A DNA stretch of 35,594 bases from Deltaproteobacteria bacterium (GTDB lineage Bacteria; Myxococcota; JADLHZ01), in assembly GCA_020848545.1 (NCBI GenBank), contig JADLHZ010000041.1, positions 1-35,594 of the forward strand. Reading direction: 5' to 3'. The position numbers and the translations under genes are program-made. Shown one piece after another: positions 5,765 through 22,599 of this stretch (positions are counted from its first letter, which is position 1; every line of letters begins with the position of its first letter). The notes under the pieces are model-generated. The model did no database searches. It had not been told where the DNA came from and saw nothing but the letters and a program-made list of their open reading frames with translations.

Positions 5765-7093
5765 TCAGGGAGCGCCAAAAACGTAGACCTCGCCGCGTGT
5801 GCTGCCGCCGCCGATCGGGTTGTCCGTTGGCGCGCCGACCGTGAGCAAGCGATCGGTGCCGGCGATGGAAAACCCGAACCGGCTTCCCAGCGGACCCTCG
5901 AGCGGTGGGCTCGAGAGCCACTCCTCGGCGCTGTTGACCCGATAGTACGGCCACACCCTCGCTGCGTCGGGATCGCCGATCATCGCGACGCCGGTGCCGA
6001 GCGCGACGATCTGAGCGCCCGCGCTCACGCCGACCGCGGCCCCGAACGTTTGCGCGAGCGACCACTTCGCGCCGCTTCGCAAGAAGCGCAGCGCCGAGCC
6101 GGCGCAGCCGACGAGCAGGTCGTCGTCGAGGAGGGCGACGCTCGCACCGCACGAAGCGGCGACCGAGAGTGTCTGCTGCTCGGACCAAGTCGTGCCCTGG
6201 CGTGTGAAGATCCGCACCGCACCCGGCGCGGCGGCGACGAGGGTCGTCGTCGTGATCGCGACGGCCAAGATGCCAGGGACGCTCGCCGAGTGCTGCTGCG
6301 GCCAGCCGCTGCTCGCTCGGCTGAACACGTAGACGCGATCGAAGGACGCGACGGCAAGGACCGTTCGTGCGGCCGCCAGGGCCGTGCCGAAGCCAGTCGT
6401 CGTGTCGTTCGGCGCGAGCGCGATCGCCGGCGTCGATGTGTTGGCCAACGCCGCCGGGGCGTCGAAGAGATCGACGCGGCCAGTCCCGGTTGGCACACCG
6501 ACGAAGAGCGCGTCGTCGATCATCGCGAGCGCGGCTGGCGCGGCGCTTGGGATCCGCGCATGCTCGGCGAAGCTGCTCGCGCCGCGCGTCCACACGACGA
6601 TCTCGGCTGTGAAGGGTGCATCGGTGACGAGCGGCGCGGCGAGCGCGGCGACGGTGCTGCCAAAGAGCGCGACGTTGCGTCCGAGGCGGCCCGGGACCAT
6701 CGTGTTCTCGAGCGACTGCGTCTGCGCTTCGCACTTGTTGCCGAGGCAGCGGGCAAAGGCGCAATCGTTGGCGCTGCCGCAACGCCGGCCGAGCCCGCAT
6801 GGCGCGCACTCGCCGCCGCAGTCGACGTCGGTCTCGGTGCTGCCGCGCAGGCCGTCGTCGCAGCGCGTGGGTGCGCACACACCAGCGTCGCAGATCTCGG
6901 TCTCGCAGTCGCTGCTGGCCGCGCAGCTCTGCCCGGCCACGCACGGCCCGCACGGTCCGCCGCAGTCGACGTCGCTCTCTTGGCCGTCGTGCGCGCCGTT
7001 GCCGCATAGCCCGCGGGGGTTCGTCGCAGGAAAATCGCGCGCGAGGTTGAGGCACGCCGCGAGGAGCACGGCCGCGGCCGCGAGCGCACGCAT
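5765..7093 (-). CDS. Cys-rich lipoprotein with a propeller-like C-terminal domain
   Basis: 442 residues. The N-terminus MRALAAAAVLLAAC ends in a lipobox (LAAC, Cys14), so an outer-surface lipoprotein is expected. Residues 25-120 hold two Cys-rich modules of the 'DG..ETDVDCGG.C..C..G..C....DC' type common in myxobacterial surface proteins. The remainder is a series of short beta-rich repeats (for example DRVYVFSRASSGW and GEVYVFGAP) that resemble FG-GAP/beta-propeller blades. The start ATG (7093-7091) shares one base with the upstream stop (TGATG), so it is translationally coupled to the PEGA gene. The open frame extends to 7435, but that extension overlaps the PEGA gene and lacks a signal. 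No specific function can be assigned. It is the last gene of the sterol-gene run. Confidence 0.75.
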   Translation of the reverse strand: MRALAAAAVLLAACLNLARDFPATNPRGLCGNGAHDGQESDVDCGGPCGPCVAGQSCAASSDCETEICDAGVCAPTRCDDGLRGSTETDVDCGGECAPCGLGRRCGSANDCAFARCLGNKCEAQTQSLENTMVPGRLGRNVALFGSTVAALAAPLVTDAPFTAEIVVWTRGASSFAEHARIPSAAPAALAMIDDALFVGVPTGTGRVDLFDAPAALANTSTPAIALAPNDTTTGFGTALAAARTVLAVASFDRVYVFSRASSGWPQQHSASVPGILAVAITTTTLVAAAPGAVRIFTRQGTTWSEQQTLSVAASCGASVALLDDDLLVGCAGSALRFLRSGAKWSLAQTFGAAVGVSAGAQIVALGTGVAMIGDPDAARVWPYYRVNSAEEWLSSPPLEGPLGSRFGFSIAGTDRLLTVGAPTDNPIGGGSTRGEVYVFGAP

Positions 7094-8169
7094 CAGAACG
7101 ATCCTCGCAGGGACAGCGCCGCGCCTTCGCCCGTGACGGCGGCGCCGACTTGCACCGGCGCCTTCGGGATGGTCAGGCCGACGACCAGCGTGCCGATGCC
7201 GAAGCCGGCGCCCACGACGATCACGCCGATGCCGAAGCCGCGTTGCGTATTCGAGCGATCGACGGCGCGGCGGAGGTCGCGATAGCGCGCGTCGGCGTCG
7301 TCCTCGCTGACGGCGCCGAGGTACGCGCGATACTCCTTCGCGGCGATCGCCGCCTGCGACGGCGCCGACGCCAGCAAGGGCACGCCAATGCCCGTGCAGA
7401 TCCCGGCCATGATCCCGAGCGCGGCGACGATCCACGCTCTGCCGCGGCGGCGGTTGGCCGTGTCGATCTGGGCGCGGACGTCTTGCTCGACGCGCGCGCG
7501 CTCGACCTTTTGATCGGCGAGTGCCACGTGCTCGGCGTGTGGCTTCTGCGCTGCGAGCGCGATCGTGCGCTTCTGCTCGGCGTACCCGGCGAGCAAGACG
7601 CGGATCGTGTGCGGCCCTGGCGCGATGCGGCCGACGTAGGCCGGGGTCCTGCCGATCGCCACGTCATCGACGAGCACATCGGCGCCCGCGGGCGTGCTCA
7701 GCACCTCGAGCGAAGTCGTCGGCGGCACCTGGCCGAAGAGCCCATAAAGCGCGTCCTCGACCGCCCTTGCGTAGCGCCGCTCTTCGTTCTGCACGTTCGC
7801 CTGGCTGCGCGACTCGACGGCGCCGCGTTCCGGATCGATGAGCGTCATCGTGACGATCAACTGCTCGCCGAGCGCGCTGAGCGTCACCGTGAGCAGTCGG
7901 TTGGCACCGAGCGCGCCTGCGATCTCGACGGCGCAGGAGACGTCGCTGCAGCCGAGCGAGTCCTTCATGCGCTCGAAGCCGAGGATCGCCGAGATGTCGC
8001 TCGAGCCGATGACGGTGAAGGTGCCCATGGACGAGAGCGCGTTGAGCACGAGCTGCTCCGCGGCCTTCGCGGTGTCGGGCTGCACGCGGTTTGCCTGCGG
8101 TGGCATCACGGCGAGGCGGGGCTTAGTGTCCGCGACGCTCAGCAGCGGGATGAGCAAGGCGGCGAGCAT
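7093..8169 (-). CDS. PEGA-domain envelope protein with CsgG-like N-terminal region
   Basis: 358 residues. A signal sequence (about 1-13) is followed by a 'TKPRLAVMPP' strand typical of CsgG/TolB-like N-terminal domains (about 15-145). A PEGA domain follows at about 152-216 (SLEVLSTPAGADVLVDD...GPHTIRVLLAGY). Two hydrophobic helices lie at about 245-267 and 311-334. PEGA domains are extracytoplasmic binding modules found in myxobacterial surface proteins. The start ATG 8169 shares its first base with the TGA of the sterol reductase gene; a TTG at 8172 is also possible. Residues 57-88 resemble a truncated reading frame at 31974-32360 in this window. Role unknown. Its place in the sterol operon suggests an envelope partner, which is inference. 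Confidence 0.75.
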   Translation of the reverse strand: MLAALLIPLLSVADTKPRLAVMPPQANRVQPDTAKAAEQLVLNALSSMGTFTVIGSSDISAILGFERMKDSLGCSDVSCAVEIAGALGANRLLTVTLSALGEQLIVTMTLIDPERGAVESRSQANVQNEERRYARAVEDALYGLFGQVPPTTSLEVLSTPAGADVLVDDVAIGRTPAYVGRIAPGPHTIRVLLAGYAEQKRTIALAAQKPHAEHVALADQKVERARVEQDVRAQIDTANRRRGRAWIVAALGIMAGICTGIGVPLLASAPSQAAIAAKEYRAYLGAVSEDDADARYRDLRRAVDRSNTQRGFGIGVIVVGAGFGIGTLVVGLTIPKAPVQVGAAVTGEGAALSLRGSF

Positions 8170-9503
8170 CAATAGACGAACGGGACGATGCGGTGCGGGA
8201 CGCGCTTACAGTACTCCGCCCAGTCGTCGCCGTACTTCTCCTCGCACGCGTGATGATCGCGGCGCTCGCGATCGATGAGCAGCGGCGCGAAGTAGATGAA
8301 GTAGAAGTAGGGCGGAAGGTGCGCGAAGCCGCAGGGCAAACACCACGCGAGCGCCATCATCAGATCGCCCAAGTAGTTCGCGTGCCGCGCGAGCCCCCAC
8401 CAGCCCGAGGTCAACAGCTTGGTGCCGCGCTTCGTCTGCATGAACGTGGCCGGCTTGCCCCAAATGTGCGACGCCGGCTCGGTCTTGAACTTGTGCTTCT
8501 GCAGGTTCGCGGTCCGGAAGATGAAGTAGCCGCCGGCATTCAGAAGGCAGATTCCGATGACCGCCCACCACGCGAGCGCCGGCGCGTGCGTGACGAGGTA
8601 CTGCGCCTGCAGCGAGAAGATGAACGGCATCCACACGACGAAGCCGAAGCCGAGCATGAAGCCGAAATTCTCGTTGTTGATGTCCCAGGTCGAGAGCATC
8701 GCGTGCTCGAAGATGTAGAAGTCGATGACATAGGCGAGTTGGAACAAGACGACGAGCAGCATCGCCAAGCTGAGCGTTCCGTCGCGCTCGTACTGGGCGC
8801 CGGCCATCGCCAAGGTGAGAACGATCCACGTCGTCATCCCGATCTTCGACTCGAAGAAGAGCTTGAGATCGAAGCCGCCCGTCTCGACGCGTTTCGAGGC
8901 GCCAGAAACGTTGACGGTGATGCCTTCGGGCGTGACCGCAGTCGCGGCCGATGACAAGCCACGCAGGCGGGGATTCAATCCGGTGCCCATGAAGTAGTCG
9001 TAGATGAAGTTGCCGCTGCGGTGCTCGACGCGCGACGAGCGCTGCCCGATCCAGTAGAGGAAGGCCGCGAGCACGTACGAGCCGAGGATGCCAACGCTGA
9101 GCAGTGGGCCGAGCTCGGCCAAGATCGTCGACGCGCGCAAGATGCCGCCTGCCCACAGGCCGGCCATCGCCGCCAGCGAGACGCCGAGCGAGAGCAAGCC
9201 GTTCAAGCGGTACTTGAGGACGACGCCGTCGCGCGCCTTCAAGCCCTCGACCACGCGGCCGGGGAGCACGATCTGCAAGACGATCTGAAACGCGAGCCAC
9301 GCAGAGAAGAACCCGAGCGCTCGCCACGTGGGCAACGGCCAATCCGTGAGCGCGGGCAATGCGAGGCTGCCGCCGTGCTTGTGCACGCAGATCCACAGAT
9401 AAACCGAGAGCACCGGCAGCAGCGTCATGAACGCGACGCCGCCGAGGACGCCGCCGAACGCGCGCGGCTCGATGCGGGTAAATGCCGGGGGATTCTCGCT
9501 CAT
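8169..9503 (-). CDS. C-14 sterol reductase (ERG24/TM7SF2 family)
   Basis: 444 residues, polytopic membrane protein of the ERG4/ERG24 family. Its reaction would be NADPH-dependent reduction of the delta14 double bond left by CYP51. Family landmarks are all present: FMGTGLNPRL, GGFDLKLFFE, YIFEHAMLSTWDI, FGFMLGFGFVVWMPF, then GWWGLARHANYLGDLMMALA with WCLPCG. The C-terminus is RRDHHACEEKYGDDW followed by EYCKRVPHRIVPFVY. The C-terminal half is especially close to animal TM7SF2/LBR, which favours delta14 over delta7 or delta24(28) reductases, although these share the fold. Start ATG 9503 overlaps the preceding stop by ATGA, and the longer in-frame extension to 9566 lies inside that gene. It acts in the membrane, fourth step of the operon's order after the Rieske genes. 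Confidence 0.88.
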   Translation of the reverse strand: MSENPPAFTRIEPRAFGGVLGGVAFMTLLPVLSVYLWICVHKHGGSLALPALTDWPLPTWRALGFFSAWLAFQIVLQIVLPGRVVEGLKARDGVVLKYRLNGLLSLGVSLAAMAGLWAGGILRASTILAELGPLLSVGILGSYVLAAFLYWIGQRSSRVEHRSGNFIYDYFMGTGLNPRLRGLSSAATAVTPEGITVNVSGASKRVETGGFDLKLFFESKIGMTTWIVLTLAMAGAQYERDGTLSLAMLLVVLFQLAYVIDFYIFEHAMLSTWDINNENFGFMLGFGFVVWMPFIFSLQAQYLVTHAPALAWWAVIGICLLNAGGYFIFRTANLQKHKFKTEPASHIWGKPATFMQTKRGTKLLTSGWWGLARHANYLGDLMMALAWCLPCGFAHLPPYFYFIYFAPLLIDRERRDHHACEEKYGDDWAEYCKRVPHRIVPFVY

Positions 9504-10534
9504 GCCGCGACGCTGAGCACCGGCGCGCCGGCGCGACGCTTCAACGCACCGCGCGCTTCGAACCACGCGATCTGCTCGTCGTAAGCCGCGAACACGCTGG
9601 TCGGCTTGAACCCGAGATCCGTCTGCGCCTTCTGCGTCGTCGCCGATTTCGAAGAGGACAAGAGGCGGATCGTGCCAGGCGTGAAGCGCGGCGGCACGTC
9701 GGGGAAGAAGCGCTTCATGACGAAGGTCGATGCTGCCGCGACCGGCTTCATCAGCGGCAGCGGCAACTTCAAGCGCGGCATCGGCGCGCCGATCTGCTTG
9801 TGCAAGTGCTGCAAGATGTCTTCGAGCGTGTGGTGGCCGCCGCTCAAGATGTAGCGCTCGCCGGTCTTGCCCTTCTCCATCGCGAGCAAGTGGCCGGCGA
9901 CCACGTCACGGACGGCGACGAACTCGAAGCCGCCGGGCAGATACGCGCGCATTTTACCGGCGGCGAAGTCCAAGATCGTGCGGCCGACGGATGAGGGCAA
10001 ATAGTCGTGCGGGCCGACGACGCCCGACGGATTGACGATGACGATGTCCATGCCGCGCGCGACGGCGCGGTGCGCTTCGAGCTCGCTCACCGCCTTCGAC
10101 AATTCGTAGTCCAAGTGCACGTCATACGGATTCACGGTGAACGTCTCGTCGCTCGGGCCGTGTGGGTTCACGCCGATGGCGCCGAAGGACGAGCAGTAGA
10201 CCGTGCGCTCCACGCCGGCGCGCTCGGCGACGTCGAAGAGGCTCTTCGTGCCGACGACGTTCGTGGCGAAGAGCTCGTCAGTGTCGCCCGCGCGCAGCGA
10301 GACGAACGCCGCCACGTGGTACATGCGATCGCAGCCTTGCACGGCGGGCTTCAACGACTCTTTGTCGCGCAGATCGCCGTAGACGCGCTCGACGTCGAGG
10401 CCGTCCAAGGCGGTGTTGTTCGCGTCGCGCTGGCAGAGCACCTTCACGGCAACGCCGCGCGCGAGCAATTCCCGCACGAGGTTGGCGCCGACGTGGCCAG
10501 AGCCGCCGGTGACGAGCGTCTTCTTGGCGGTCAC
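9500..10534 (-). CDS. SdmB-like NAD(P)-dependent sterol dehydrogenase/decarboxylase
   Basis: 344 residues, extended short-chain dehydrogenase of the 3-beta-hydroxysteroid dehydrogenase group. It shows the cofactor motif G10-x-x-G13-x-x-G16 (TGGSGHVG), a Ser pair at 115-116 and the catalytic Y143-x-x-x-K147 (YELSK). In Methylococcus, SdmB is the known partner of the Rieske oxygenase SdmA: after SdmA oxidises a C-4 methyl to a carboxyl, SdmB oxidises the 3-hydroxyl so the carboxyl is lost, completing C-4 demethylation. That role is inferred here from family and from direct adjacency to the Rieske gene, which it overlaps by four bases (GTGA; GTG start at 10534). General NSDHL-like or dihydroflavonol reductase-like functions are the alternatives. 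Confidence 0.82.
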   Translation of the reverse strand: MTAKKTLVTGGSGHVGANLVRELLARGVAVKVLCQRDANNTALDGLDVERVYGDLRDKESLKPAVQGCDRMYHVAAFVSLRAGDTDELFATNVVGTKSLFDVAERAGVERTVYCSSFGAIGVNPHGPSDETFTVNPYDVHLDYELSKAVSELEAHRAVARGMDIVIVNPSGVVGPHDYLPSSVGRTILDFAAGKMRAYLPGGFEFVAVRDVVAGHLLAMEKGKTGERYILSGGHHTLEDILQHLHKQIGAPMPRLKLPLPLMKPVAAASTFVMKRFFPDVPPRFTPGTIRLLSSSKSATTQKAQTDLGFKPTSVFAAYDEQIAWFEARGALKRRAGAPVLSVAA

Positions 10535-11664
10535 TCTGCCACCTGCAACGACGCCGCGGACGGCGACTCGGTCGCGCGACCAGCTTTCTTCGTGGTCGAG
10601 ACGCGCTTCTTCAGCGACGCTTCGTACTCATCCCACTTCTTCATCGTCAGCTGCTGCGCCTTCGGCACGAAGGGGTTGAACTCGAAGCTCGGCCGGCCGC
10701 CGTGGCGGTTGTGCGCCACTTGCTCGGCTTCCATGATCCAGTTGTCCTGGCCGAGGACGGGCTGCACGTAGAGCTTGTTCGCCAGCGCCATCACCGGCTG
10801 CTGCAGCCAGCGCGGCAGCGTCGCCTTCACGAAGGGCAGCTTGAACGACTTGAACGTGAACACGTAGAAGATGTGCGTCGTCTGCTCGTCGATCGGCCGC
10901 AGAAAGAGCCAGTGCAGGTACTTGCCGTCGATGTCCGAGCGCTGGAACGGATACTCGTACCAGAGCTTGATCGTGTTCAGGTTCACGCTGCCGCTGTCGG
11001 CGAAGTACTTCACGAACGGGCCGCCGCCGATCTTCGTCTCGTAGCGCACTTCGACCGAGTCATCCGTCGTGTCGATGCCGGTGAAGCGCGCCGACGCGAA
11101 CGGCCGGTAATCGCGGTGCAAGAACTCGTGATAGAAGTCGCACACGTTCTCGACGATCATCGAGTGGTGGCACTTGACCACGTAGTCGACCGGGATCGTC
11201 GCCCAGTTCTTTTCGACCGGCTCCATGTGCGGCAGCGCCGAGAGCTGCGCTTTTTCCGGATCGCCCGGGAACACCCAGACGATCCCGTACTTCTCGGTCA
11301 CCGGAAACGAGCCGACGCGGATGTCCGGCCGGTTCTTCGTGCGGACTTCGTGCGGGATCTTCGTGCATTCGCCGCCGCCGTCGAACTGCCAGCCGTGGTA
11401 GCCGCACGCGAGGTCGCAGCCCTGCACCACGCCGAGCGACATCTTCACATGGCGGTGCGCGCAGCGGTCTTCGATCGCGCGCACGACGCCGTCGTCGCCG
11501 CGGTAGACCGCGATCGATTCCTTCCAGAACACGACCTCTTTGACCTCGCCCTTCTTCAGGTCACCCGACCACATGGCCGGGTACCAATAGTCGCCCGAGA
11601 GGCCGGCGGCGCGGACGCGTTCACGGTGCGTGAGGTGCGGTTCGATCGGCGTGGTCGTGCTCAT
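10531..11664 (-). CDS. Rieske non-haem iron oxygenase, SdmA-like sterol C-4 methyl oxidase
   Basis: 377 residues. The Rieske [2Fe-2S] motif is C68-x-H70 with 16 residues to C87-x-x-H90. The mononuclear iron site follows, with N173, D176, H179 and H183 in ENVCDFYHEFLH and a probable third ligand D307 in GQDNWIMEAEQ. This is the two-domain architecture of Rieske oxygenases such as bacterial SdmA, cholesterol 7-desaturase (Neverland) and KshA. Because it sits between a ferredoxin and an SdmB-like dehydrogenase, the most likely reaction is stepwise oxidation of a sterol C-4 methyl group. Start ATG 11664 overlaps the ferredoxin stop by ATGA. No C-terminal membrane anchor is visible. A dedicated ferredoxin reductase is not in the window. 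A sterol desaturase of the Neverland type is the main alternative. Confidence 0.85.
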   Translation of the reverse strand: MSTTTPIEPHLTHRERVRAAGLSGDYWYPAMWSGDLKKGEVKEVVFWKESIAVYRGDDGVVRAIEDRCAHRHVKMSLGVVQGCDLACGYHGWQFDGGGECTKIPHEVRTKNRPDIRVGSFPVTEKYGIVWVFPGDPEKAQLSALPHMEPVEKNWATIPVDYVVKCHHSMIVENVCDFYHEFLHRDYRPFASARFTGIDTTDDSVEVRYETKIGGGPFVKYFADSGSVNLNTIKLWYEYPFQRSDIDGKYLHWLFLRPIDEQTTHIFYVFTFKSFKLPFVKATLPRWLQQPVMALANKLYVQPVLGQDNWIMEAEQVAHNRHGGRPSFEFNPFVPKAQQLTMKKWDEYEASLKKRVSTTKKAGRATESPSAASLQVAE

Positions 11665-11957
11665 CCTGATACCTCTGCGACAACATCGTCGCCTTCAACG
11701 CGCGTCTTGTAACACGCGACTTCGCCTTCGCCGTAGACTTCCTTGCCCGTCGTCACGTCGTAGGTCCAATCGTGCCACGGGCAGGTCACGTGGGTGCCTT
11801 GCACGATGCCTTCGCTCAGCGGTCCGCCGAGGTGCGCGCAGGTGTTGTCGATGGCGTGAAAGGCGCCGTCGCAGTTGAACACTGCGAGCTCTTTGCCGCC
11901 GGCAGTGAACTTGCGTCCCTTGCCGTTCGGCACGTCTGCAGTCTTGCAGACCTTCAT
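11661..11957 (-). CDS. Rieske-type ferredoxin
   Basis: 98 residues forming a single Rieske domain with C40-x-H42, 16 residues, then C59-x-x-H62 (CAHLGGPLSEG ... CPWHDW). Ferredoxins of this type carry single electrons from a reductase to a Rieske oxygenase or to a bacterial P450. Here the gene lies exactly between a P450 and a Rieske oxygenase, overlapping both by four bases. It therefore probably feeds one or both sterol oxidations. No signal peptide, so cytoplasmic. It could also be called a NirD-like protein, but no nitrite reductase large subunit is nearby. Confidence 0.87.
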   Translation of the reverse strand: MKVCKTADVPNGKGRKFTAGGKELAVFNCDGAFHAIDNTCAHLGGPLSEGIVQGTHVTCPWHDWTYDVTTGKEVYGEGEVACYKTRVEGDDVVAEVSG

Positions 11958-13321
11958 CCGACGGCTTTCAACGGCACCTGCACGAGCGGCGCCTTCCTAC
12001 GGCGGTAGCGCGCGCGGCATGGCTGGTGCGGCCCGACGAGGATGCGCTTGTAGTCCGGCGAGTATGAGTCTTCGATGAGCTCGAGCTCGAAGTTGCGCAC
12101 GAGCACGCTCGACGTCGCTACGAGCTGCAGCATGGCGAAGACGGCGCCGAGGCAGCGGTGCTTGCCGCCGCCGAAGGGCAGAAACGCGAGCGGGTGCTGC
12201 TTGTCTTCTTCGCGGCCTGGGCCGAAGCGATCCGGATCGTACTTCGTCGGATCTTTGAAGATCGTCGGGATCATCTGCGACGCGGCCGGCGAGCAGAGGA
12301 CCATCTGGCCCTTCTTGATGTCGTACTGCTCGTGCTGGAAGTCCTTCAGCACGCGGCGCATGACCATGATGATCGCCGGGTACATGCGCAGCGTCTCTTT
12401 GATGCTCCGCTCGAGCGTGTGCATGGCGCGGAGGTCTTCGATCCGCATTTGGTGCCCGTCGCCCATGATCGCTGCTTGCTCGTCCATGACCCGCTTCAAG
12501 TAGTCCGGGTGCTGGTGCATCAGGATCGTGTTCCACGAGAAGGTCACGCCGCTCGTGTGGTGGCCGGCGAACATGACGGTGAGCAGCATGCCCACGACCT
12601 CGTCGTCGGTCATCGGGCGGCCGTTCGAGTAGCGCGCTTCGAGCAGCGCTTGCAGGATGTCGTTCTCTTCGCGCTTCGTGTTCCGGCGCTCGTCGACGAC
12701 CTTCTTGATCATCTCGCCGAGCTTCGCCCGCGCTTTGTCGCGGCGGCGGTGCGCCGGGATCGGCAGGTACGGGTTCAAGAACGAGAGCAGCGTCAGGCTG
12801 CCTTCCATCTCTTGGTAGAGGCGCGCGAACTCGCCCGAGAGGTGCTTTCTGAAGTCGCTGCCGAGCAGCGCGCGCGACGAGGTGTAGATCGTGAGCTCGT
12901 TGCCCACGTCGTAGAGATCCATCACGCCTTCGTTGTCGAATTTTTCGAAGAAGAGCTCCGCTTCTTCGACGAAGCAGTCGGAGTAGGTCTTCAAGCGTTG
13001 CTCGCGGAGCGCCGGATGCAAGAACGCGAGCTGCTCCTTCATGATCTCGGGCGTCGTGTCGTAGGCGATGCCCTTGCCGAAGATCGGCGTGACGAATTGG
13101 TAGACTTCTTTTTGGCTGACGACGTCGTCCGGCATGCGGAAGAAGGTCTCGTGCGCCTTCAAGCCGCTGAACACGACGGTGTCGGCGCCAGGGAGCTTCA
13201 TGCCGAAGACGTCGCCGTGGCGCTCGCGGCCTCGCGTGATGAGGTCGACGGGACCTTTACGAAGCTCGAGGGCGTGACCAATGAAAGGCAGGGCTCCAGC
13301 GAGCATCGGAGGTTTGGCCAT
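11954..13321 (-). CDS. CYP51-family sterol 14-alpha-demethylase
   Basis: 455-residue cytochrome P450. The CYP51-specific B'/C segment YQFVTPIFGKGIAYD (74-88) and the I-helix motif FAGHHTSG (251-258, with the family's His-Thr in place of the usual acid-Thr) identify the subfamily. ExxR is E309-R312 and the haem loop FLPFGGGKHRCLG carries the thiolate Cys390. CYP51 removes the 14-alpha-methyl group in three oxygen-dependent steps, leaving a delta14 bond for the C-14 reductase encoded downstream. Phe76 occupies the site where plant and T. brucei enzymes, which prefer C4-monomethylated sterols, carry Phe. There is little N-terminal anchor. Start ATG 13321 has no Shine-Dalgarno sequence, and a TTGACA lies 35 bases upstream, so a very short leader is possible. 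First gene of the operon. Confidence 0.88.
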   Translation of the reverse strand: MAKPPMLAGALPFIGHALELRKGPVDLITRGRERHGDVFGMKLPGADTVVFSGLKAHETFFRMPDDVVSQKEVYQFVTPIFGKGIAYDTTPEIMKEQLAFLHPALREQRLKTYSDCFVEEAELFFEKFDNEGVMDLYDVGNELTIYTSSRALLGSDFRKHLSGEFARLYQEMEGSLTLLSFLNPYLPIPAHRRRDKARAKLGEMIKKVVDERRNTKREENDILQALLEARYSNGRPMTDDEVVGMLLTVMFAGHHTSGVTFSWNTILMHQHPDYLKRVMDEQAAIMGDGHQMRIEDLRAMHTLERSIKETLRMYPAIIMVMRRVLKDFQHEQYDIKKGQMVLCSPAASQMIPTIFKDPTKYDPDRFGPGREEDKQHPLAFLPFGGGKHRCLGAVFAMLQLVATSSVLVRNFELELIEDSYSPDYKRILVGPHQPCRARYRRRKAPLVQVPLKAVG

Positions 13322-14241: not shown

Positions 14242-14257
14242 AGACCTCTGCGGGTCT
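14242..14257. terminator. Small inverted repeat between convergent genes
   Basis: AGACC (14242-14246) pairs with GGTCT (14253-14257) around a six-base loop, between the isomerase stop (14224) and the stop of the cNMP-binding gene (14256-14258). Only five pairs and no T-run, so this is a weak terminator candidate. Confidence 0.25.
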
Positions 14258-16241
14258 AGAGCCGGCCGCCCGGCACGAGGTTCCCGGCCATCTCCACGCG
14301 CTGCTCCCAGAAAAACGGCTGATCGAAGAGCTCGAGGCTCTTTTGCCGCGAGCGGAACAACTGCACGATGAACTTCATGCGGTCATCCAAGTTGCCCCAG
14401 TCGGCGAAGCCCGAGTGCGCCCGCGAGAAGTGCTTGACGATGCGCGCGAGCTCTTGGTTGTCGAGCGACTGCAGCATGTCGGCGTAGATCCGCGCGTTCG
14501 GCAGGTTCGGGATCTCGCTGCCCAGGCGCAAGACACCGTACGGCAAGCGCAGCGTCATCAGGCTCTGCGTGGCGAGCCGGCGCCAGAGCACGGTCACCTT
14601 CTCGAGGGCTTTGACGACCAAGCGATGCTTCGGCAGCTCGGCGAGCCCGAGCGCGAGCGGCGTGTTCAATGCGTCGATGATGTTCGGCTGCAGGCGCATC
14701 TGCTCGTGCAAGCCGACCTTGATGTTGCCGAGCAGGATCAGCTCCGTCTTGCGCTTCATGTTCGGCTCGAAGGTCGCTTCGTAATAGTGGGCGAGGGCTT
14801 CCTTCAGCGTGTCTTGGCCGCCGGCTTCGGTGGCGCCGGACTTCATGGTGTCCAAGAACGCGCTCAGCTTCTCGCGCGAGTACTCGCTGTCCGCGTGGAA
14901 GGTGCGGACGAAGCGCGCGAAGATCGGCGCCAGCTCGGCGAAGACCTTCAAGTTGCCGGCCGAGATCGAGTCGCTCACGCCCTGCAGGATCGTCTCGACC
15001 TTCTTCATCGCCCATGACGACGCGAAGGTTTGCTCGGCGCGCTCGAGGAGCGCAGCGGCGCGGCGGTTCTGCTTCAGCATCAAGATGGCGCCATAGAACG
15101 GCAGCTCTTCGCGCCGGATCGAGTAGCCCGCGGTCTTCGACGCGTTGCAGGCGAAGGTGCACCAATTGGCGTCTTCGTGGCCGAGCAAGGTCGTCAGCTG
15201 CAGCGAGAGGCGGTGGTACATCTGCGTGATCTTCAGATTGCGCAGCACGAGGTTCTCGGTCTTCGTGATGTCTTCGCACTCCTCCACGCTGACGACGCCG
15301 CTCGAGCGCACCTGCGTCACGACGCCGCGCTGGCGAATGCGGCGGTTCAAGCGATCCATCAGCACCTTCGTGAAGATCACCATCGTCTGCGGGTGCTCGG
15401 CGACCAAGCGACCGAAGCCGGCTTGCGACAGCCGCAAGAGCTCGCTGTCGCGCTCGGTGACGACGTAGGCCGAGCGCAGAGCGTTCCCGAGCAGCGCCAT
15501 CTCGCCCACGGACTCACCCGGGCCGATCTCGCCGAGATCGATCTCGCTGCCGTCTTCGTTCTTTGTGTAGGCGCGCAGGCGCCCGGCGAGGACGAAGTAG
15601 AGGCAGTCGCCCTTTTCGCCCTCGCGCATGAGCACGGTGCCGCGCGGCAGCGGTTGCCACTGCGTCTCGGCTTCGAGGCCGGCGAGCTTCGATGGCTCGA
15701 CCGACACGATCTCGGCGAGGTGCTTCGACAACGCTTCGGGGCTTGGCCGATGCCGGCGCGTCTTCGCCCAATTCAAGCGGTAGACGAGGCCCGAGGTGAG
15801 CGTCTCCGAGAGCTTCGGGTTCTGCGCGATGAACTTCTGCAGCGTGTCGCGCGACAAAGCGATGAGCTCGCACTCCGTGACCGCCGTCACCGTGGCCATG
15901 CGCGGCGTTCGGCCGAGCAGCGCGATCTCGCCGAAGTGCTCGCCTTCGCGCACCTCGCCAAGGACGACGTCGCCGTACTCCGACTTCTGCGTGACGCGCA
16001 GGCGGCCCGCGACCACGAGGTACATGTGATCGCCTGGGTCGCCTTCCTTGATGAACACTTCGCCGGCCGGGATCCGCGCTTGGTTGCACGCCGCAGCGAG
16101 CGCCGAAATCTGCTGCTGATCGAGATCGCCGAAGAGGTGCGTGGCGCGCAGTTGGCTCGCGACGCGATCGTCGGCCTCTCGATCTTCATTCTCCGGAACG
16201 ACAGCGACTTCTTCTTCGGCGAGCGCGACGGCGGTGGTCAT
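14256..16241 (-). CDS. Protein with two cyclic-nucleotide-binding domains
   Basis: 661 residues. Two CNMP-binding beta-barrels lie in tandem. The first is at about 36-150, with its phosphate-binding cassette F103-G-E-I-A-L-L and R114. The second is at about 176-320, with SVGEMALLGNALRS around 245-257. Residues from about 330 to 661 form an all-helical region I do not recognise; no kinase, cyclase or HTH motif is visible. Such proteins sense cAMP or cGMP, and tandem domains recall regulatory subunits of PKA-like systems. The strong ribosome binding site GAGGGGAAG lies just before ATG 16241, fixing the start. It is convergent with the isomerase gene and upstream of nothing on its strand except the methyltransferase 103 bases away. 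Confidence 0.8.
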   Translation of the reverse strand: MTTAVALAEEEVAVVPENEDREADDRVASQLRATHLFGDLDQQQISALAAACNQARIPAGEVFIKEGDPGDHMYLVVAGRLRVTQKSEYGDVVLGEVREGEHFGEIALLGRTPRMATVTAVTECELIALSRDTLQKFIAQNPKLSETLTSGLVYRLNWAKTRRHRPSPEALSKHLAEIVSVEPSKLAGLEAETQWQPLPRGTVLMREGEKGDCLYFVLAGRLRAYTKNEDGSEIDLGEIGPGESVGEMALLGNALRSAYVVTERDSELLRLSQAGFGRLVAEHPQTMVIFTKVLMDRLNRRIRQRGVVTQVRSSGVVSVEECEDITKTENLVLRNLKITQMYHRLSLQLTTLLGHEDANWCTFACNASKTAGYSIRREELPFYGAILMLKQNRRAAALLERAEQTFASSWAMKKVETILQGVSDSISAGNLKVFAELAPIFARFVRTFHADSEYSREKLSAFLDTMKSGATEAGGQDTLKEALAHYYEATFEPNMKRKTELILLGNIKVGLHEQMRLQPNIIDALNTPLALGLAELPKHRLVVKALEKVTVLWRRLATQSLMTLRLPYGVLRLGSEIPNLPNARIYADMLQSLDNQELARIVKHFSRAHSGFADWGNLDDRMKFIVQLFRSRQKSLELFDQPFFWEQRVEMAGNLVPGGRL

Positions 16242-16344: not shown

Positions 16345-17028
16345 TCAGGGTTCCCCAGTGAGGCGCGGTTTCACGATGTTGCTCGGCTCGTCGTTCACCC
16401 GTTTATCGACGAAGCAGAGGTTGTGATAGAAGTGCACGCCCACCGTGTGGCGCTCGACGTAGCTCGGCACACCGCCTTCGCGCTCAGCGTAGTTCACGGC
16501 GTCGACGAGCGACTTCAGGAAGTTCAATGAGGTGTTCGCGCTGGTGAGATCATTCATGTCGCCGCCGAAGCTCGACCAGTAGCTCGTTTGCAGATCTTCG
16601 ACCGCGTAGACGCCGCCGAGCTCGAGCGTCGGATACAAGATCTCGAAGGTGCGAATGACGTGCGCGTTCAAGTGGCTGCCGTCGTCGATGATCAAGCGAA
16701 AGGGCCCGGCCTCGGCGACGACCCGCTCCAAGAACACGGCGTCCGTTTGATCGCCCTGATAGACGCGGATGCGTGGGCCGGCGACGTGCTTTTCGTAGAG
16801 GTCGATCCCGACGATCGTCGCGTTCGGAAAGTAGTCCTGCCACATCCGAAGGCTCTCGCCGCCGAGCGCGGGATCCTTGTAGCCGCCGACGCCGATCTCG
16901 AGCAGGTTGAAGGTCTGGTCGCGGTAGGGCGCGAAGTGGCGCTCGTAATGCGGAATATAGAAGTGCGAGCCCCACTTGTCGGTGCCGTAGCGCTTGGCGA
17001 AGTCGAGCAGGCTCGGGCGGGTCCACAT
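16345..17028 (-). CDS. MycE/TylE-type class I SAM methyltransferase
   Basis: 227 residues from ATG 17028. The N-terminus SLLDFAKRYGTDKWGSHFYI and the SAM motif LLEIGVGGYKDP (42-53) match the MycE/TylE/ElmMI group. This group O-methylates deoxysugars on macrolides and other natural products, or cell-surface glycans. So do GGESLRMWQDYFP, VGIDLYEK, IIDDGSH and the metal-site-like VEDLQTSYW. These enzymes are Mg-dependent with acidic residues binding the metal. The frame stays open upstream to 17214, but that overlaps the start of the divergent aldehyde dehydrogenase, and the family start favours 17028. Substrate unknown. A sterol glycoside sugar is possible but only conjecture. Confidence 0.8.
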   Translation of the reverse strand: MWTRPSLLDFAKRYGTDKWGSHFYIPHYERHFAPYRDQTFNLLEIGVGGYKDPALGGESLRMWQDYFPNATIVGIDLYEKHVAGPRIRVYQGDQTDAVFLERVVAEAGPFRLIIDDGSHLNAHVIRTFEILYPTLELGGVYAVEDLQTSYWSSFGGDMNDLTSANTSLNFLKSLVDAVNYAEREGGVPSYVERHTVGVHFYHNLCFVDKRVNDEPSNIVKPRLTGEP

Positions 17029-17098
17029 CGTCGCGGGACCATAGCTTGTCAGGGCAAAAAAACCATGCCAGAGCGCGCGTTCGAAAGAGGGCGCACGC

Positions 17099-18724
17099 AT
17101 GGGCACAACGACTCCGATCTCCCAATCGAAGAAGCGCAAGGAAGCGGCGAACAGCGACAGCATCGCCTGCTTCAACCCGGGCACGCTCGAGCCGCTCGGC
17201 GAAGTCGAGAACATGCGGCCGGCGCAGGTGCTCGAGATCGTCGCGCGCGCACGAAAAGCGCAGCCGCAGTGGGCGAACGCCAGCTTCGCGGAGCGTAAGA
17301 AAGTGTTCCGCGCGCTGCTCGACTACGTGCTCGCGCACCAAGATGAGATCGCCGACGTCTGCGTGAAGGACTCCGGCAAGACTCGGGTCGACGCGCTCCT
17401 CGGCGAAGTGATCCCGGTGTGCGAGAAATTGCGTTACGTCATCCAGAACGGCGAGCGTGATCTCGCTGCCGAGCCGCGCTCGAGTGGCTTCCTCGTCAAC
17501 AAGAGGGTGCGCGTCGAATATCCGCCGCTCGGCGTCGTCGGCGTCATCTGCCCGTTCAACTTTCCGTTTCACAACGTGTTCTGCCCGGCGATCCCGGCGT
17601 TGTTCGCCGGCAACGCGGTGGTGCTCAAGGTCAGCGAGTGGACCAGCTGGTCCGCGAAGTACTTCCAGTCGATCTTCGACGCGATCCTGAGCCGCTTCGG
17701 CTACTCGACCGATCTCGTGCAGCTCGTGACTGGCGACGGCCAGACCGGCAGCGCCCTCGTGACGAGCGGCGTGGAGAAGATCTTCTTCACCGGCTCGCCG
17801 CAGAACGGCAAGAAGGTGATGGCGGCGGCGGTCGACACGCTGACGCCGGTGATTCTCGAGCTCGGCGGCAAAGATCCGATGATCATCTGCGACGACGCGC
17901 CCTTCGATCACGCGGTCTCGACGGCGATGCTCGGTGTGTTCACGGCGTGCGGGCAAATGTGCGTCGGCGCCGAGCGCATCTACGTGATGGACGGCATCTA
18001 TGATCGCTTCGTCGCCGAGGTCGTGCGCCGTGTCTCGGCGCTGCGCCAAGGCCCGGCGAGCGAAGACAAGGGCGGGGAGTTCGACGTTGGCGCGCAGACC
18101 ATGCCGCGCCAGCTCGACATCATCGAGAAGCAAGTGAACGACGCCGTGAAGAAGGGCGCCAAAGTGCTCGTCGGCGGCAAGCGCAACACCGCGTTGAACG
18201 GCCAGTTCTGGCTGCCGACGGTGCTCGCCGACGTGACGCACGAGATGGCGATCACGCAAGAAGAGACCTTCGGCCCGGTGATGACGATCATCCGCGTGAA
18301 GGACGAGGACGAAGCGATTCGTCTCGCGAACGACTGCGCGTACGGCCTCGGCTCGAGTGTGTTCACGAAGAACGCGGCGCGCGGCGAGCGCATCGCCAAG
18401 GCGATCTCGGCGGGCATGGCGGTCGTCAACGACTACGGCCTCGGGTACATGATGCAGTCGGCGCCGTTCGGCGGCCTGCGCGTGTCGGGCTTCGGGCGCA
18501 TCAACGGGCGCGAAGGCTTGCGTGCGTGTACGGCAGAGAAGACCGTCGTCACCGATCGCATCCCGATGAACAAGTCGGTCGGCTTCTACCCGATTAGCGC
18601 GATCACCTTCCCGCTCGTGCGCGACGTGACGACCTTGCTCTACGCCGGATCGCTTGGCGCGCGGCTCTCGGCCTTGGCCAGCGCGGCGAAGACGGTGCTC
18701 GGGAAATCATCGCCGGCACGTTGA
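17099..18724 (+). CDS. NAD(P)-dependent aldehyde dehydrogenase
   Basis: 541 residues, ALDH superfamily. The catalytic residues are C288 in GQMC, E254 in ELGGKDP and N154 in PFNFP; the cofactor loop FFTGSPQNGKKV (229-240) and C-terminal ETFGPVMTI also fit. It oxidises an aldehyde to an acid. The substrate is not readable from sequence. The last 45 residues (from about 497) extend beyond the usual end and are hydrophobic, so a membrane contact is possible, as in fatty aldehyde dehydrogenases. AAGAGGG before ATG 17099 is a good ribosome binding site. It lies 67 bases upstream of the sterol methyltransferase on the same strand. A role in sterol methyl or side-chain oxidation is possible, but known Rieske SdmA performs its own aldehyde step. 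Confidence 0.85.
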   Translation: MGTTTPISQSKKRKEAANSDSIACFNPGTLEPLGEVENMRPAQVLEIVARARKAQPQWANASFAERKKVFRALLDYVLAHQDEIADVCVKDSGKTRVDALLGEVIPVCEKLRYVIQNGERDLAAEPRSSGFLVNKRVRVEYPPLGVVGVICPFNFPFHNVFCPAIPALFAGNAVVLKVSEWTSWSAKYFQSIFDAILSRFGYSTDLVQLVTGDGQTGSALVTSGVEKIFFTGSPQNGKKVMAAAVDTLTPVILELGGKDPMIICDDAPFDHAVSTAMLGVFTACGQMCVGAERIYVMDGIYDRFVAEVVRRVSALRQGPASEDKGGEFDVGAQTMPRQLDIIEKQVNDAVKKGAKVLVGGKRNTALNGQFWLPTVLADVTHEMAITQEETFGPVMTIIRVKDEDEAIRLANDCAYGLGSSVFTKNAARGERIAKAISAGMAVVNDYGLGYMMQSAPFGGLRVSGFGRINGREGLRACTAEKTVVTDRIPMNKSVGFYPISAITFPLVRDVTTLLYAGSLGARLSALASAAKTVLGKSSPAR

Positions 18725-18791
18725 CGTTTTTTTCGGGAGAGTGCAGTAACGCGACGCTCAGTCGCATACGCAAAACCTAAAGAGGGTGACG

Positions 18792-19823
18792 ATGAACCAA
18801 CCAGCCGCTACGGATATCTTGCAAACCTCGCTGCCCGCCGACCAGGTGAAGAGCGTCGTGGACGAGTACAAGTCTTTCCACGCCGGTACGGTCGAGACCC
18901 GCAAGACCAACTACAAGACGATGGTCAACCACTATTACGATCTCGTCACCGACTTCTACGAGTTCGGTTGGGGCCAGTCGTTCCACTTCGCGCCGATGTT
19001 CAAGGGCGAGGCCTTCGCGGCGTCGATCGCGCGGCACGAGCACTGGCTCGCGGCGCAGCTCAACCTCAAGCCGGGCATGAAGGTGCTCGACGTCGGCTGC
19101 GGCGTCGGCGGCCCAATGCGCGCGATCGCCCGCTTCAGTGGGGCCACGGTCGTCGGCGTCAACAACAACGACTACCAGATCAAGCGCGGCGACAAGCTCA
19201 ACGCCGAAGCCGGCCTGGCGAACCTCTGCAGCTTCCAGAAGGCCGACTTCATGAAGCTGCCGTTCGAGAACAACACCTTCGACGCGATTTATGCCATCGA
19301 AGCGACGTGTCATGCTCCTGACAAATTGAAACTGTTCACCGAGCTTGCCCGCACGATGAAGCCGGGCGCGCACTTCGCCGGCTACGAGTGGTGCATGACC
19401 GACAAGTACAACGCCGGGAACGCCGAGCACCGCGCGATCAAGAAGGGCATTGAAGAGGGCGACGCGCTTCCGGACATCTGGACCACGCATGACGTCGTCG
19501 CCGCGCTCGAAGGTGCCGGTCTCGAAGTCGTCGAAGCCAAAGACGTGGCGCCGACGGCCGACGCCGAGACGCCGTGGCACACGCCGTTGAAGGGCCGCTT
19601 CAGCATCGACGGCTTCAAGCACACCGAGGTCGGCCGCGTGACCACGCACTACTTCGTCAAGGCGCTCGAGACGCTCAAGATCGCGCCGAAGGGCTCGACG
19701 GCGACGTCGTCGTTCCTGCAAGACGCCGCGACCGCGCTGGTCAAGGGCGGCGACACCGGCATCTTCACGCCGATGTTCTTCTTCCACGTCAAGAAGCCCG
19801 GCTCGTCGAAGTCGAAGTCCTAG
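18792..19823 (+). CDS. Sterol C-24 methyltransferase (ERG6/SMT1-like)
   Basis: 343 residues. It shows the signature regions of sterol methyltransferases: region I YEFGWGQSFHF (56-66, substrate binding), the SAM motif LDVGCGVGGP (99-108), region II EATCHAP (170-176) and region III YEWCMTDKY (198-206). The reaction is transfer of a methyl group from SAM to C-24 of a delta24 sterol; plant SMT1 acts on cycloartenol. ERG6 itself is somewhat longer (383). Start ATG 18792 is chosen because AAAGAGGGTG precedes it at good spacing; GTG 18786 lies inside that site. A TTGACG at 18721 overlaps the aldehyde dehydrogenase stop and could be a -35 box. It converges with the oxidosqualene cyclase gene, 28 bases away. 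Confidence 0.92.
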   Translation: MNQPAATDILQTSLPADQVKSVVDEYKSFHAGTVETRKTNYKTMVNHYYDLVTDFYEFGWGQSFHFAPMFKGEAFAASIARHEHWLAAQLNLKPGMKVLDVGCGVGGPMRAIARFSGATVVGVNNNDYQIKRGDKLNAEAGLANLCSFQKADFMKLPFENNTFDAIYAIEATCHAPDKLKLFTELARTMKPGAHFAGYEWCMTDKYNAGNAEHRAIKKGIEEGDALPDIWTTHDVVAALEGAGLEVVEAKDVAPTADAETPWHTPLKGRFSIDGFKHTEVGRVTTHYFVKALETLKIAPKGSTATSSFLQDAATALVKGGDTGIFTPMFFFHVKKPGSSKSKS

Positions 19824-19831
19824 CTGCAAAC

Positions 19832-19851
19832 GCCGCTTTCCGCGGAACGGC
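19832..19851. terminator. Imperfect inverted repeat between convergent sterol genes
   Basis: GCCG (19832-19835) and CGGC (19848-19851) flank the near-palindrome TTCCGCGGAA. This gives a bulged hairpin filling the gap between the methyltransferase and cyclase stops. No T-run. Candidate bidirectional terminator. Confidence 0.3.
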
Positions 19852-21855
19852 TCAAGACTTCGCGAGTGCGAGGGCCCAGAGCGGAAAATAGTTCCGATAG
19901 AATCGGTAGTGGATCATGCACGTGCGGTTGAACACGCCGGCGATCCCTTCCTTCGGCCAGTCGCCGTTCGCGAGCTGACGTTCTTCGAGCAAGGCGACGC
20001 CGCGCTCGATGGCGGACTGCGCCTCCGGCCGCCCTGCTTGGATCAACGCGAGCAGCGCCCACGCCGTCATCACGACCTGCGAGCCGTCCGGGTGCTGCAC
20101 GTAGTCGCGTGTCTCGCAGCTCAAATAGCTCTCGCCCCAGCCGCCGTCCTTGTTCTGTTTGCGCAAGAGGAACTCGACGGCCTGTTGCAGCGCCGGATCG
20201 TCTGGTGAGGCGCCGCACGCACGCAGCCCCATGACGCCGAACCAGGTGCCGTAGGTGAAGCACACGCCCCACGAGCCTTCCCAGCTGCCGTCGATGCGCT
20301 GCGCCGCGCGTACGTAGCGCTCGCCATTCGATAGCGCGGTCGCGATCTTCGCCAGCCGCTCGGTGCCGAGCGCGTCGCCGTAGTGGTCGCGCGCTTTGAC
20401 GAGCCCGGCCATCGTCGAGGCGCTGAGCTCGACGTACGGATACTCGACCATGATGCGCCCGAAGACCTCCGACGGGTTCAACAGCTCGAGCAGCGGATGG
20501 CCGCGGCGCTTCTCGTACGAGCACCACGCGCCGGACGGCTCTTGGCCCCACAACATGAAGTCGATGGAGTCGAAGAGGCGCTCTTTCGCCATCGGCTTCG
20601 CCGCGACGTGCTCGAACGCGAGCGCCGCTTTGACGCCGTCGGAAGTGCAGTCGAAGACGGGCCAGCCGTTCACCTCGTTCGAGAAGCCCCAGCCGCCCTT
20701 CGTCGGATCGCGGAAGTACTTCTCGCGCTCGTCGACGTCCTCTTTGATCTGCGTGCGATCGATGAACGCGTAGGCCTTCTTCGCCATCGCGAGGAATTCG
20801 TCGCCTCTGCCGCTCGCTGCCAGGGCTTGCAGCGTGAACGCCGTGTCCCACAGCTCGCTCGAGTGGTAGCCCTGCATCTTCAAGCCGTCTTCGCCGTCGA
20901 AGAGGTACTCGTTCATGCCGGCGATCGCTCTTTGCGTATGCTCGGTGCCGGGCGCCGCGGCGAAGCAGGCGATGGCGTCCAAGCACTTGTTCACCGGCCC
21001 GAGCGCCACGAAACGCGTCGACGTCTCTTCGTGGCGGATGTGATCGAGGACGAGCGCGAGCGCCTTGTCACGCAGTTTTTGCAGCCGCGGGATGCGCTGA
21101 ATGCCTTGCTCGACGAGGCCGAGCACCTTGTTCGCTGCGCGCAACACTGGGCTGTGCGGCGTGTAAAGATCGTTCGGATGCACCGTTCCACGCGCGCGCT
21201 GCCAATCGATCGTCGCGTACGGCCGGTCGTGGATCTCGTCGCGGATCTCGGCGAGCAGCGGCGTCTCTTCGACGCGCCAGCGGCGGCCGTAGAGATAGGA
21301 CATCGGCAGGTACACGACGCGCGCGTGGCACCACATGAGCGACGGGTGCACCGGCAGCCACGTCGGCGCGAGCCAGAGCTCCGGCAGCACCGGGTTGATG
21401 CCCTCATACTCGTAGAGGCCGAGCACGCACAGCCAGAACTTGCCCCACGACGCCGCGCCGAGCACCGCGCCCGGCTGCTTTCGAATCCATTCTCGCGCGC
21501 GCTTCGCCGACGGCGCCGTCTTCGCCACGCCGAGCAAGCGCAGCGCGACGTAGTTGATCGCGCTCGTGAACATGTAGCTCTTCGCTTCGATGTGCAGCCC
21601 GAAGCCGCCGTCCTCGTTCTGCACGCTCTCGATGTAGCGGATGAGGCCCTTGGCGACTTTCGGCGAAATCTCGGTGCCGGTCGCGTAGTGCGCGAAGACG
21701 TAGCCGGGGACGAGGAAGAGCGGACCGCCGTAGTCGCCGTGCCAGCCGCCGTCTTTCTCTTGGATCGACTCCAGGTAGCGGAAGCCCTTGCTGATGGCGT
21801 CCGTTTTTTGCGTGGCTTTGCGCTTTCTCACGGCGGGGCGCTCGAGGTCATTCAT
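19852..21855 (-). CDS. Oxidosqualene cyclase (cycloartenol/lanosterol synthase type)
   Basis: 667 residues with the alpha/alpha-barrel QW repeats (QEKDGGW, QNEDGGF, QRIDGSW, KQNKDGGW). The catalytic region is D402-C403-T-S-D, the oxidosqualene type, rather than the DxDD of squalene-hopene cyclases. The second cysteine that supports the catalytic Asp in cyclases of this type is C532 (GSWGVCF). Diagnostic product-specificity positions: Tyr330 (MQGYHSSELWDT) equals cycloartenol synthase Tyr410, where lanosterol synthases have Thr. Asn396 replaces plant His477, and Val400 is lanosterol-synthase-like where plants have Ile481. So the product is ambiguous from the enzyme alone; the ring-opening isomerase in the window favours cycloartenol. 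A monotopic membrane protein is expected. Twelve bases downstream of the EEP gene on the same strand. Confidence 0.93.
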   Translation of the reverse strand: MNDLERPAVRKRKATQKTDAISKGFRYLESIQEKDGGWHGDYGGPLFLVPGYVFAHYATGTEISPKVAKGLIRYIESVQNEDGGFGLHIEAKSYMFTSAINYVALRLLGVAKTAPSAKRAREWIRKQPGAVLGAASWGKFWLCVLGLYEYEGINPVLPELWLAPTWLPVHPSLMWCHARVVYLPMSYLYGRRWRVEETPLLAEIRDEIHDRPYATIDWQRARGTVHPNDLYTPHSPVLRAANKVLGLVEQGIQRIPRLQKLRDKALALVLDHIRHEETSTRFVALGPVNKCLDAIACFAAAPGTEHTQRAIAGMNEYLFDGEDGLKMQGYHSSELWDTAFTLQALAASGRGDEFLAMAKKAYAFIDRTQIKEDVDEREKYFRDPTKGGWGFSNEVNGWPVFDCTSDGVKAALAFEHVAAKPMAKERLFDSIDFMLWGQEPSGAWCSYEKRRGHPLLELLNPSEVFGRIMVEYPYVELSASTMAGLVKARDHYGDALGTERLAKIATALSNGERYVRAAQRIDGSWEGSWGVCFTYGTWFGVMGLRACGASPDDPALQQAVEFLLRKQNKDGGWGESYLSCETRDYVQHPDGSQVVMTAWALLALIQAGRPEAQSAIERGVALLEERQLANGDWPKEGIAGVFNRTCMIHYRFYRNYFPLWALALAKS

Positions 21856-21867
21856 GGCTCCGCGTCG

Positions 21868-22599
21868 CTAGCGCGCGGGCGCAGTCAGGGCAAGCTCCAC
21901 GTAGAGCGGCAGGTGATCGGAGAGATCGATCCACGGCGTGCCCTGCATGCAGCGGGCGTCGGCGATGGTGAGGTTCTTCGTGTAGATGCGGTCCAAGTTG
22001 AACATCGGGCGCTTCGTGTGCCAAGTGCGCGTCGCCTTCTTGGGCTCGCCGAACGCGTTCACGAGCCCCATCTCGGAGCAGACGAAGCGGTCGACGTTGT
22101 GGTTCCAGTCGTTGAAGTCGCCGGCGATGAGCACCGGATCGTCGGGCGTGCTCAGCCGCTGCATCAGCGCCAAGATGTGCCGCATCTGCGTCAGCCGCTG
22201 CCGCTCGGTGAGCCCCAAGTGGACGTTGAAGAGATGCAGCCGGCGGTCGTTCATGAGCACCCGCGTGTAGAGGGCGCCGCGCCTCTCGATCGGGTTCGTC
22301 GAGATGTCGAAGTTTTGCACGTGTTCGATAGGCATGTGCGTAAACGAGGCGTTTCCATGGTGGCCGACGCGGCGGTGCTTGTTCGCGCGATAGACCGCGG
22401 TGAGGCCGAGCGCGTCCGAGATCACGTGGCTCTGGCCGTCATCGTCGACGCCGTGGAAGACTTCTTGGCAGAGCAGAAAGTCGAGCGGCTGTGCCTTCAG
22501 CGCGTCGGCGAGCGGCACCGTCAGCACGCTCTTGCCGTCTGGCCCCAAGCCCTTCCTGATGTTGTAGGTCATCAAACGGAAGGTGCGCCCGGAATCCAT
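21868..22599 (-). CDS. Endonuclease/exonuclease/phosphatase (EEP) family protein
   Basis: 243 residues with the DNase I-like fold motifs in order: LMTYNIRKG near the N-terminus, LLCQEV (metal-binding Glu), FNVHLGL, GDFNDWN (catalytic Asp-Asn) and the terminal SDHLPLYVEL with the active-site His. The family includes nucleases, inositol phosphatases and sphingomyelinases, and the substrate cannot be told from these motifs. No signal peptide. It directly precedes the oxidosqualene cyclase gene by 12 bases, so the two are probably one transcript. A functional link to sterols is unproven. Start ATG 22599. Confidence 0.82.
   Translation of the reverse strand: MDSGRTFRLMTYNIRKGLGPDGKSVLTVPLADALKAQPLDFLLCQEVFHGVDDDGQSHVISDALGLTAVYRANKHRRVGHHGNASFTHMPIEHVQNFDISTNPIERRGALYTRVLMNDRRLHLFNVHLGLTERQRLTQMRHILALMQRLSTPDDPVLIAGDFNDWNHNVDRFVCSEMGLVNAFGEPKKATRTWHTKRPMFNLDRIYTKNLTIADARCMQGTPWIDLSDHLPLYVELALTAPAR

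Follow-up and report, generated by a model that had tools for sequence, protein, structure and literature searches.

A cluster of eight sterol genes at positions 8169-21855 (~14 kb) of a 35,594-nucleotide contig from a Deltaproteobacteria bacterium (GCA_020848545.1, JADLHZ010000041.1; this whole stretch is called the window below) probably encodes the core of a de novo pathway to C-24-methylated sterols in this myxobacterium-like organism, a reading to which we give a probability of about 0.72. The genes are those of an oxidosqualene cyclase (OSC), a sterol C-24 methyltransferase (SMT), a cyclopropylsterol isomerase (CPI) homologue, SdmA- and SdmB-like C-4 demethylation enzymes, a Rieske ferredoxin, CYP51 and a Delta14-sterol reductase (C14-reductase). 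An earlier note, made from the letters of the window, had named these enzymes, and all eight are genuine as judged by family, PDB and motif matches, none of which is expected by chance. De novo synthesis of 24-alkylated sterols is well supported because the locus is accompanied by squalene epoxidase and other sterol genes elsewhere in the genome. The window is contig C41 of a 163-contig, 8.0-Mb genome (completeness score 100%, contamination 1.8%), and since the non-sterol genes flanking the locus (SpoU methylase, UvrC, Ppx/GppA, TPR and M23 proteins) are all bacterial, eukaryotic contamination is unlikely.

Sterol genes of the locus and the genome

Five minus-strand genes are joined by 4-base start/stop overlaps (ATGA, GTGA), from which we infer a single translationally coupled operon. 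It begins with CYP51 sterol 14alpha-demethylase (11954..13321), which matches M. capsulatus CYP51 (PDB 6mcw, 1.8e-113), followed by the Rieske-type [2Fe-2S] ferredoxin (11661..11957; PF00355, 8.1e-21), which has an ATGA overlap on either side and is the probable electron donor for SdmA and/or CYP51. The SdmA-like C-4 methyl oxygenase (10531..11664; NF052579, 4.1e-126) carries the Rieske motif and an iron-site motif, DFYHEFLH, common to other SdmA homologues, and the SdmB-like C-4 sterol decarboxylase/dehydrogenase (9500..10534; NF052578, 3.3e-129) carries TGxxGxxG and YxxxK motifs; as a Rieske oxygenase and an NAD(P)-dependent short-chain dehydrogenase/reductase encoded by adjacent genes, which here overlap, the two fit the bacterial SdmAB C-4 demethylase. 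The last gene encodes C14-reductase of the ERG24/MaSR1 type (8169..9503; PF01222, 2.7e-111; PDB 4quv, 2.8e-115), its ATG at 9503 lying inside an ATGA overlap. The CPI homologue (13475..14224, plus strand) starts 153 bp from CYP51 and is transcribed divergently from it, while the SMT gene (18786..19823, plus strand) and the OSC gene (19852..21855, minus strand) converge, both 4-8 kb from the operon/CPI part. No promoter-like site stood above chance.

The SMT (METHYLTRANSFERASE at 18786-19823, with an alternative ATG at 18792; PF08498 (Sterol_MT_C), 1.4e-25) has every signature motif: YEFGWGQSFHF, LDVGCGVGGP and YAIEATCHAP. Among the sequences compared, Arabidopsis SMT1 is its closest match (56% identity), ahead of the SMT of a Polyangiales-order OSC-SMT-SdmA-SdmB-epoxidase cluster (L266; 53%) and of yeast ERG6 (46%); the OSC-linked SMTs from a gammaproteobacterial and a verrucomicrobial metagenome-assembled genome (MAG) stand at 43% and 40%, respectively.

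In the B' helix of CYP51, the motif YQFVTPIFG contains the Phe (YQF) of the plant and T. brucei type, and a second CYP51 on contig C139 has this Phe too. Such a Phe favours C4-monomethyl substrates (PMC2850312, PMC11089504), so the first C-4 methyl group is probably removed ahead of C-14 demethylation.

The earlier note had suggested a check for squalene epoxidase, and the enzyme is encoded on contig C9 (L015:9376-10824); its best PDB match is squalene monooxygenase (8e-26), and it shares 37-45% identity with epoxidases encoded next to cyclases in many Myxococcota. A further epoxidase-like protein is encoded on C31, and C139 carries a second locus with epoxidase-like, SdmA and CYP51 paralogues. 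Elsewhere in the genome there are an EBP-family protein, four further ERG4/ERG24-family proteins (five in all) and several FA-hydroxylases, six genes of the FA_hydroxylase family scoring over the cut-off; the window itself has no C-4 oxidase of the ERG25/SMO type. On C104 (L013:9188-12575), an N-terminally truncated second SMT that lacks the YExGWG region is followed by a radical-SAM-like protein and then by a second SdmB, 75% identical to that of the window, and an SMT fragment lies on C118.

Predicted product of the oxidosqualene cyclase

The single OSC of the genome matches TIGR03463 (2.5e-219, under the curated cut-off), TIGR01787 (6.6e-179) and human lanosterol synthase (PDB 1w6k, 4e-176). 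Beside the DCT catalytic motif it aligns with the human enzyme ungapped (SNEVNGWPVFDCT vs STLDCGWIVSDCT), and in human numbering its product-deciding residues are Tyr381, Asn449 and Val453 (Y/N/V). Positions 449 and 453 correspond to His477 and Ile481 of cycloartenol synthase. In every bacterial case tested, V453 went with lanosterol and I453 with cycloartenol (PMC4919349); His and Ile are required in all plant cycloartenol synthases, and Val is found in all lanosterol synthases (PMC4208727). The window OSC lacks this His and Ile and has the lanosterol-synthase Val453. Because of Asn449 and Val453, cycloartenol is not the best prediction, and we infer from the signature residues that the enzyme makes mainly lanosterol.

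Y/H/I is found in 72 of the 80 named bacterial OSCs and Y/N/V in only two, each no more than 10 kb from a CYP51 gene. Bacterium KW1-S15_112 (L119) has another Y/N/V cyclase, with a gap of ~5 kb to a CYP51 (46%) that carries the plant-type Phe; its genome yielded no CPI.

The earlier note had drawn a plant-like route starting from cycloartenol. Its order, with a C-4 methyl group lost before the C-14 methyl group, is independently supported by the CYP51 Phe, but cycloartenol as precursor is not supported, given Tyr381/Asn449/Val453. The plant-like traits of the locus, as far as these comparisons go, are thus its SMT, its CPI homologue and the CYP51 Phe, and not its OSC.

The CPI homologue and its bacterial family

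The CPI homologue has no match in Pfam, NCBIfam or PDB, and it was placed by its similarity to plant CPI and by bacterial relatives encoded near CYP51. BLASTP aligns it with Arabidopsis CPI end to end (4e-30, 31%), a match that we treat as a lead; identity to plant CPI is 31-35%. At 29 of the 30 columns conserved in at least 90% of the CPI rows, the window protein matches the consensus, the exception being M107, which is Leu. By these measures it is a genuine member of the CPI family, and it probably opens 9,19-cyclopropyl sterols. The AlphaFold2 model of the protein alone had a mean confidence (pLDDT) of 45 and was not used.

A second copy on contig C128 (L012:13485-14030) lacks the N-terminus and an internal segment and lies beside transposase-like genes; it is likely a decaying duplicate. 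Between the two copies the ratio of nonsynonymous to synonymous substitution rates (dN/dS) is ~0.34, a value suggesting that selection acted on the sequence during most of the period after their divergence.

None of the other 194 genomes of the organism's own phylum, 55 of which carry OSC, had CPI. We also searched genomes with a profile built of three rows: the window copy, the C128 copy and Arabidopsis CPI. Two of 50 named OSC-bearing genomes had a match, Polyangiaceae OFTM3 and Methylothermaceae A3 (the latter at a contig end), and so did 28 of the 184 genomes of OFTM3's order, with E-values up to 2e-64. The idea that CPI is unique to the present genome was therefore rejected. In OFTM3 the gene order is CYP51-CPI-ferredoxin-C14-reductase, and of the 28 CPI-bearing stretches examined, 16 also carry a CYP51, mostly adjoining CPI; where the B'-helix position is readable, the CPI-linked CYP51s of this order have Met. 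In a tree, the window CPI shares a clade with the plant and small-genome CPIs, and the OFTM3/M. rosea type makes up a second clade; support is 100/100, though the branches are long; here M. rosea stands for a 16.04-Mb CPI-bearing genome that we take to be Minicystis rosea.

CPI-bearing genomes mostly have a lanosterol-type (V453) cyclase or no detected OSC (12 of 29 have none detected). Because those with an OSC mostly have A/H/V, the CPI family, to judge by these residues, does not track cycloartenol-type cyclases. The earlier note had expected ring-opened sterols from the presence of the isomerase. This does not follow, because by the above prediction the cyclopropyl sterol is not made in-house, and CPI occurs elsewhere mostly with V453 or with no detected OSC.

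In genomes of 3-4 Mb from OFTM3's order (L217-L229, L234, L242), CYP51-CPI pairs lie among catabolic-looking genes (VOC/ring-cleavage-like, hydrolase, GMC oxidoreductase, Rieske), often with no OSC detected. Such bacteria may break down cyclopropyl sterols from algae or plants.

Other genes of the locus

A protein with two cyclic-nucleotide-binding domains (14256..16241), not recognisable as a sterol enzyme, separates the CPI and SMT parts of the locus and is a possible regulator. The next gene (16345..17214) encodes a methyltransferase of the MycE/demethylmacrocin O-methyltransferase type (PDB 3ssm, 3.6e-67). Inside a sterol locus it could be mistaken for the C-24 methyltransferase, an assignment that we rejected since the MycE-type protein is unrelated to the SMT at 18786-19823.

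An aldehyde dehydrogenase (17099..18724, plus strand; PF00171, 1.2e-128) is encoded 61 bp upstream of SMT on the same strand; its part in the sterol pathway is putative, and it might process a C-4 aldehyde or else help to break down sterols. Homologues (44-46%) are found up to ~10 kb from CPI/CYP51 in other bacteria (L217, L218, L222, L223, L227-L229, L233). Directly upstream of OSC is the gene of an endonuclease/exonuclease/phosphatase-family protein (21868..22599, minus strand; PF03372, 1.3e-13). Family matches for proteins of the window revealed no recognisable sterol enzyme in 5765-8168 or 21868-22599.

Discussion

Activities, product identities and the order of steps are predicted here from gene content, arrangement, families, motifs, signature residues and the genome complement. 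In the proposed pathway, the squalene epoxidase of the other contig would make oxidosqualene, which the single OSC would cyclise, mainly to lanosterol by its residues, and the SMT would methylate C-24. SdmA, supplied by the Rieske ferredoxin, would oxidise a C-4 methyl group and SdmB would decarboxylate it; CYP51 would then take off the C-14 methyl group, preferring a substrate already missing one C-4 methyl group, and C14-reductase would saturate the Delta14 bond so formed. For the later ring steps there are candidates elsewhere in the genome. CPI might act on a cyclopropyl side product of OSC, or on sterols imported from algae, plants or amoebae. Bacterial SMTs and SdmAB are functional in other systems (PMC10070321, PMC10202945), and the separate cluster of OSC, SMT, SdmA, SdmB and epoxidase genes in L266 is also in support.

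Several points weigh against this pathway. SdmA and SdmB score 421 and 431 bits against a curated NCBIfam cut-off of 600, and because of this they are homologues and not certified members of their families. The signature rule used for the OSC is empirical, and few bacterial OSCs have Y/N/V (3 of 81, counting the window's); we know of no characterised bacterial OSC with these residues. The proposed route gives no reason for a CPI next to a lanosterol-type OSC, and the SMT and CPI fragments indicate that some sterol genes are decaying in this genome.

The bacterial CPI-like protein could instead be another sterol isomerase, shifting for example the Delta8 bond of lanosterol-derived sterols after CYP51 with no cyclopropane involved. 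We regard this as possible but doubtful: CPI homologues mostly adjoin CYP51 and mostly occur with V453 cyclases, in a set that includes the presumed M. rosea, a reported cholesterol maker (PMC12004948), but the window CPI has most of the residues conserved in plant CPI and groups with the plant proteins rather than with the M. rosea type. Moreover, the genome encodes elsewhere an EBP-family protein that would serve Delta8-Delta7 isomerisation, and the CPI-bearing genomes with no detected OSC also fit import of cyclopropyl sterols. Alternatively, the OSC may make cycloartenol, alone or largely, with SMT, SdmAB, CPI, CYP51 and C14-reductase acting in the plant order via a cycloeucalenol/obtusifoliol-like intermediate. 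The clade shared with plant CPI, the divergent CPI-CYP51 pair, the SMT1-like SMT and Tyr381, as in cycloartenol synthases, would all suit this route; the CYP51 Phe has been read as supporting a cycloartenol route in Acanthamoeba (PMC11089504), and the Ile481Val single mutant of cycloartenol synthase still yields some cycloartenol (PMC8617677). Nevertheless, His and Ile occupy the positions of Asn449 and Val453 in every cycloartenol synthase (PMC4208727), and lanosterol is the product of bacterial enzymes with V453 (PMC4919349), which renders this explanation unlikely. Two points of general background also speak against it: the Arabidopsis cycloartenol synthase changed to both Asn and Val reportedly makes almost pure lanosterol, and T. 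brucei combines the CYP51 Phe with a lanosterol-type pathway.

It is very unlikely that the locus serves to remodel or degrade imported sterols in place of de novo synthesis, as the CPI-CYP51 pairs of small Polyangiales-order genomes, often with no OSC detected, might suggest. Degradation as the main role is set aside because OSC, in this very locus, and squalene epoxidase are both present; an SMT is present too, and no catabolic genes were seen in the window. More speculative, and rather improbable as a whole, is the wider view that a bacterial CPI family is coupled to CYP51 in several lineages, that 24-methyl sterols arise by a partly cyclopropyl route, and that plant CPI, as is the case for other sterol enzymes, possibly has a common origin with this bacterial family.

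The locus resembles the SMT clusters of a Sandaracinus MAG and of sponge symbionts (Brown et al. 2023, PMC10070321) in its OSC, SMT and SdmA/SdmB homologues, in the uncultured hosts and in the predicted 24-alkyl sterols. It adds the CPI homologue, the CYP51-ferredoxin-SdmA-SdmB-C14-reductase operon and the Y/N/V cyclase; Brown et al. mention neither CPI nor an isomerase. With the cholesterol pathways of Enhygromyxa, Sandaracinus and Minicystis (PMC10202945, PMC12004948) it shares a ring pathway of the CYP51, SdmAB and C14-reductase type, although their sterols are C-24-reduced or unalkylated, unlike those predicted here; PMC12004948 mentions neither SMT nor CPI, and PMC10202945 does not mention CPI. 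The plant phytosterol pathway (CAS1-SMT1-SMO-CPI1-CYP51G-FACKEL) is alike in the SMT1-like SMT, CPI, CYP51 Phe and C14-reductase, whereas the window has lanosterol-type cyclase residues and Rieske SdmA/SdmB in place of SMO/ERG25. Acanthamoeba and T. brucei share the CYP51 Phe preferring C4-monomethyl sterols and 24-alkyl end products, but use eukaryotic C-4 demethylation enzymes (PMC11089504, PMC2850312).

The earlier note had left open whether such a set had been reported. Publications already describe bacterial SMTs clustered with sdmAB, as well as cholesterol synthesis by bacteria (PMC10070321, PMC10202945, PMC12004948). We found no mention of a cyclopropylsterol isomerase in the open-licence papers on bacterial sterols that were searched. 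Our firm claim is that a bacterium has a gene set for sterols alkylated at C-24: the combination of SMT, CPI, Rieske C-4 oxidase, SdmB, CYP51 and C14-reductase read by the earlier note is borne out by families and motifs, and together with squalene epoxidase it is consistent with the C-24-alkylated, ring-demethylated sterols predicted there. This would matter for 24-alkylated steranes in old rocks, which are read as signatures of eukaryotes. With a near-complete set for ring and side chain in one place, the locus would make a compact construct for proof in a heterologous host. The bacterial CPI family is a separate lead, as an apparently undescribed partner of CYP51, and kinship between the plant and bacterial proteins would bear on the origin of the cycloartenol branch of sterol synthesis.

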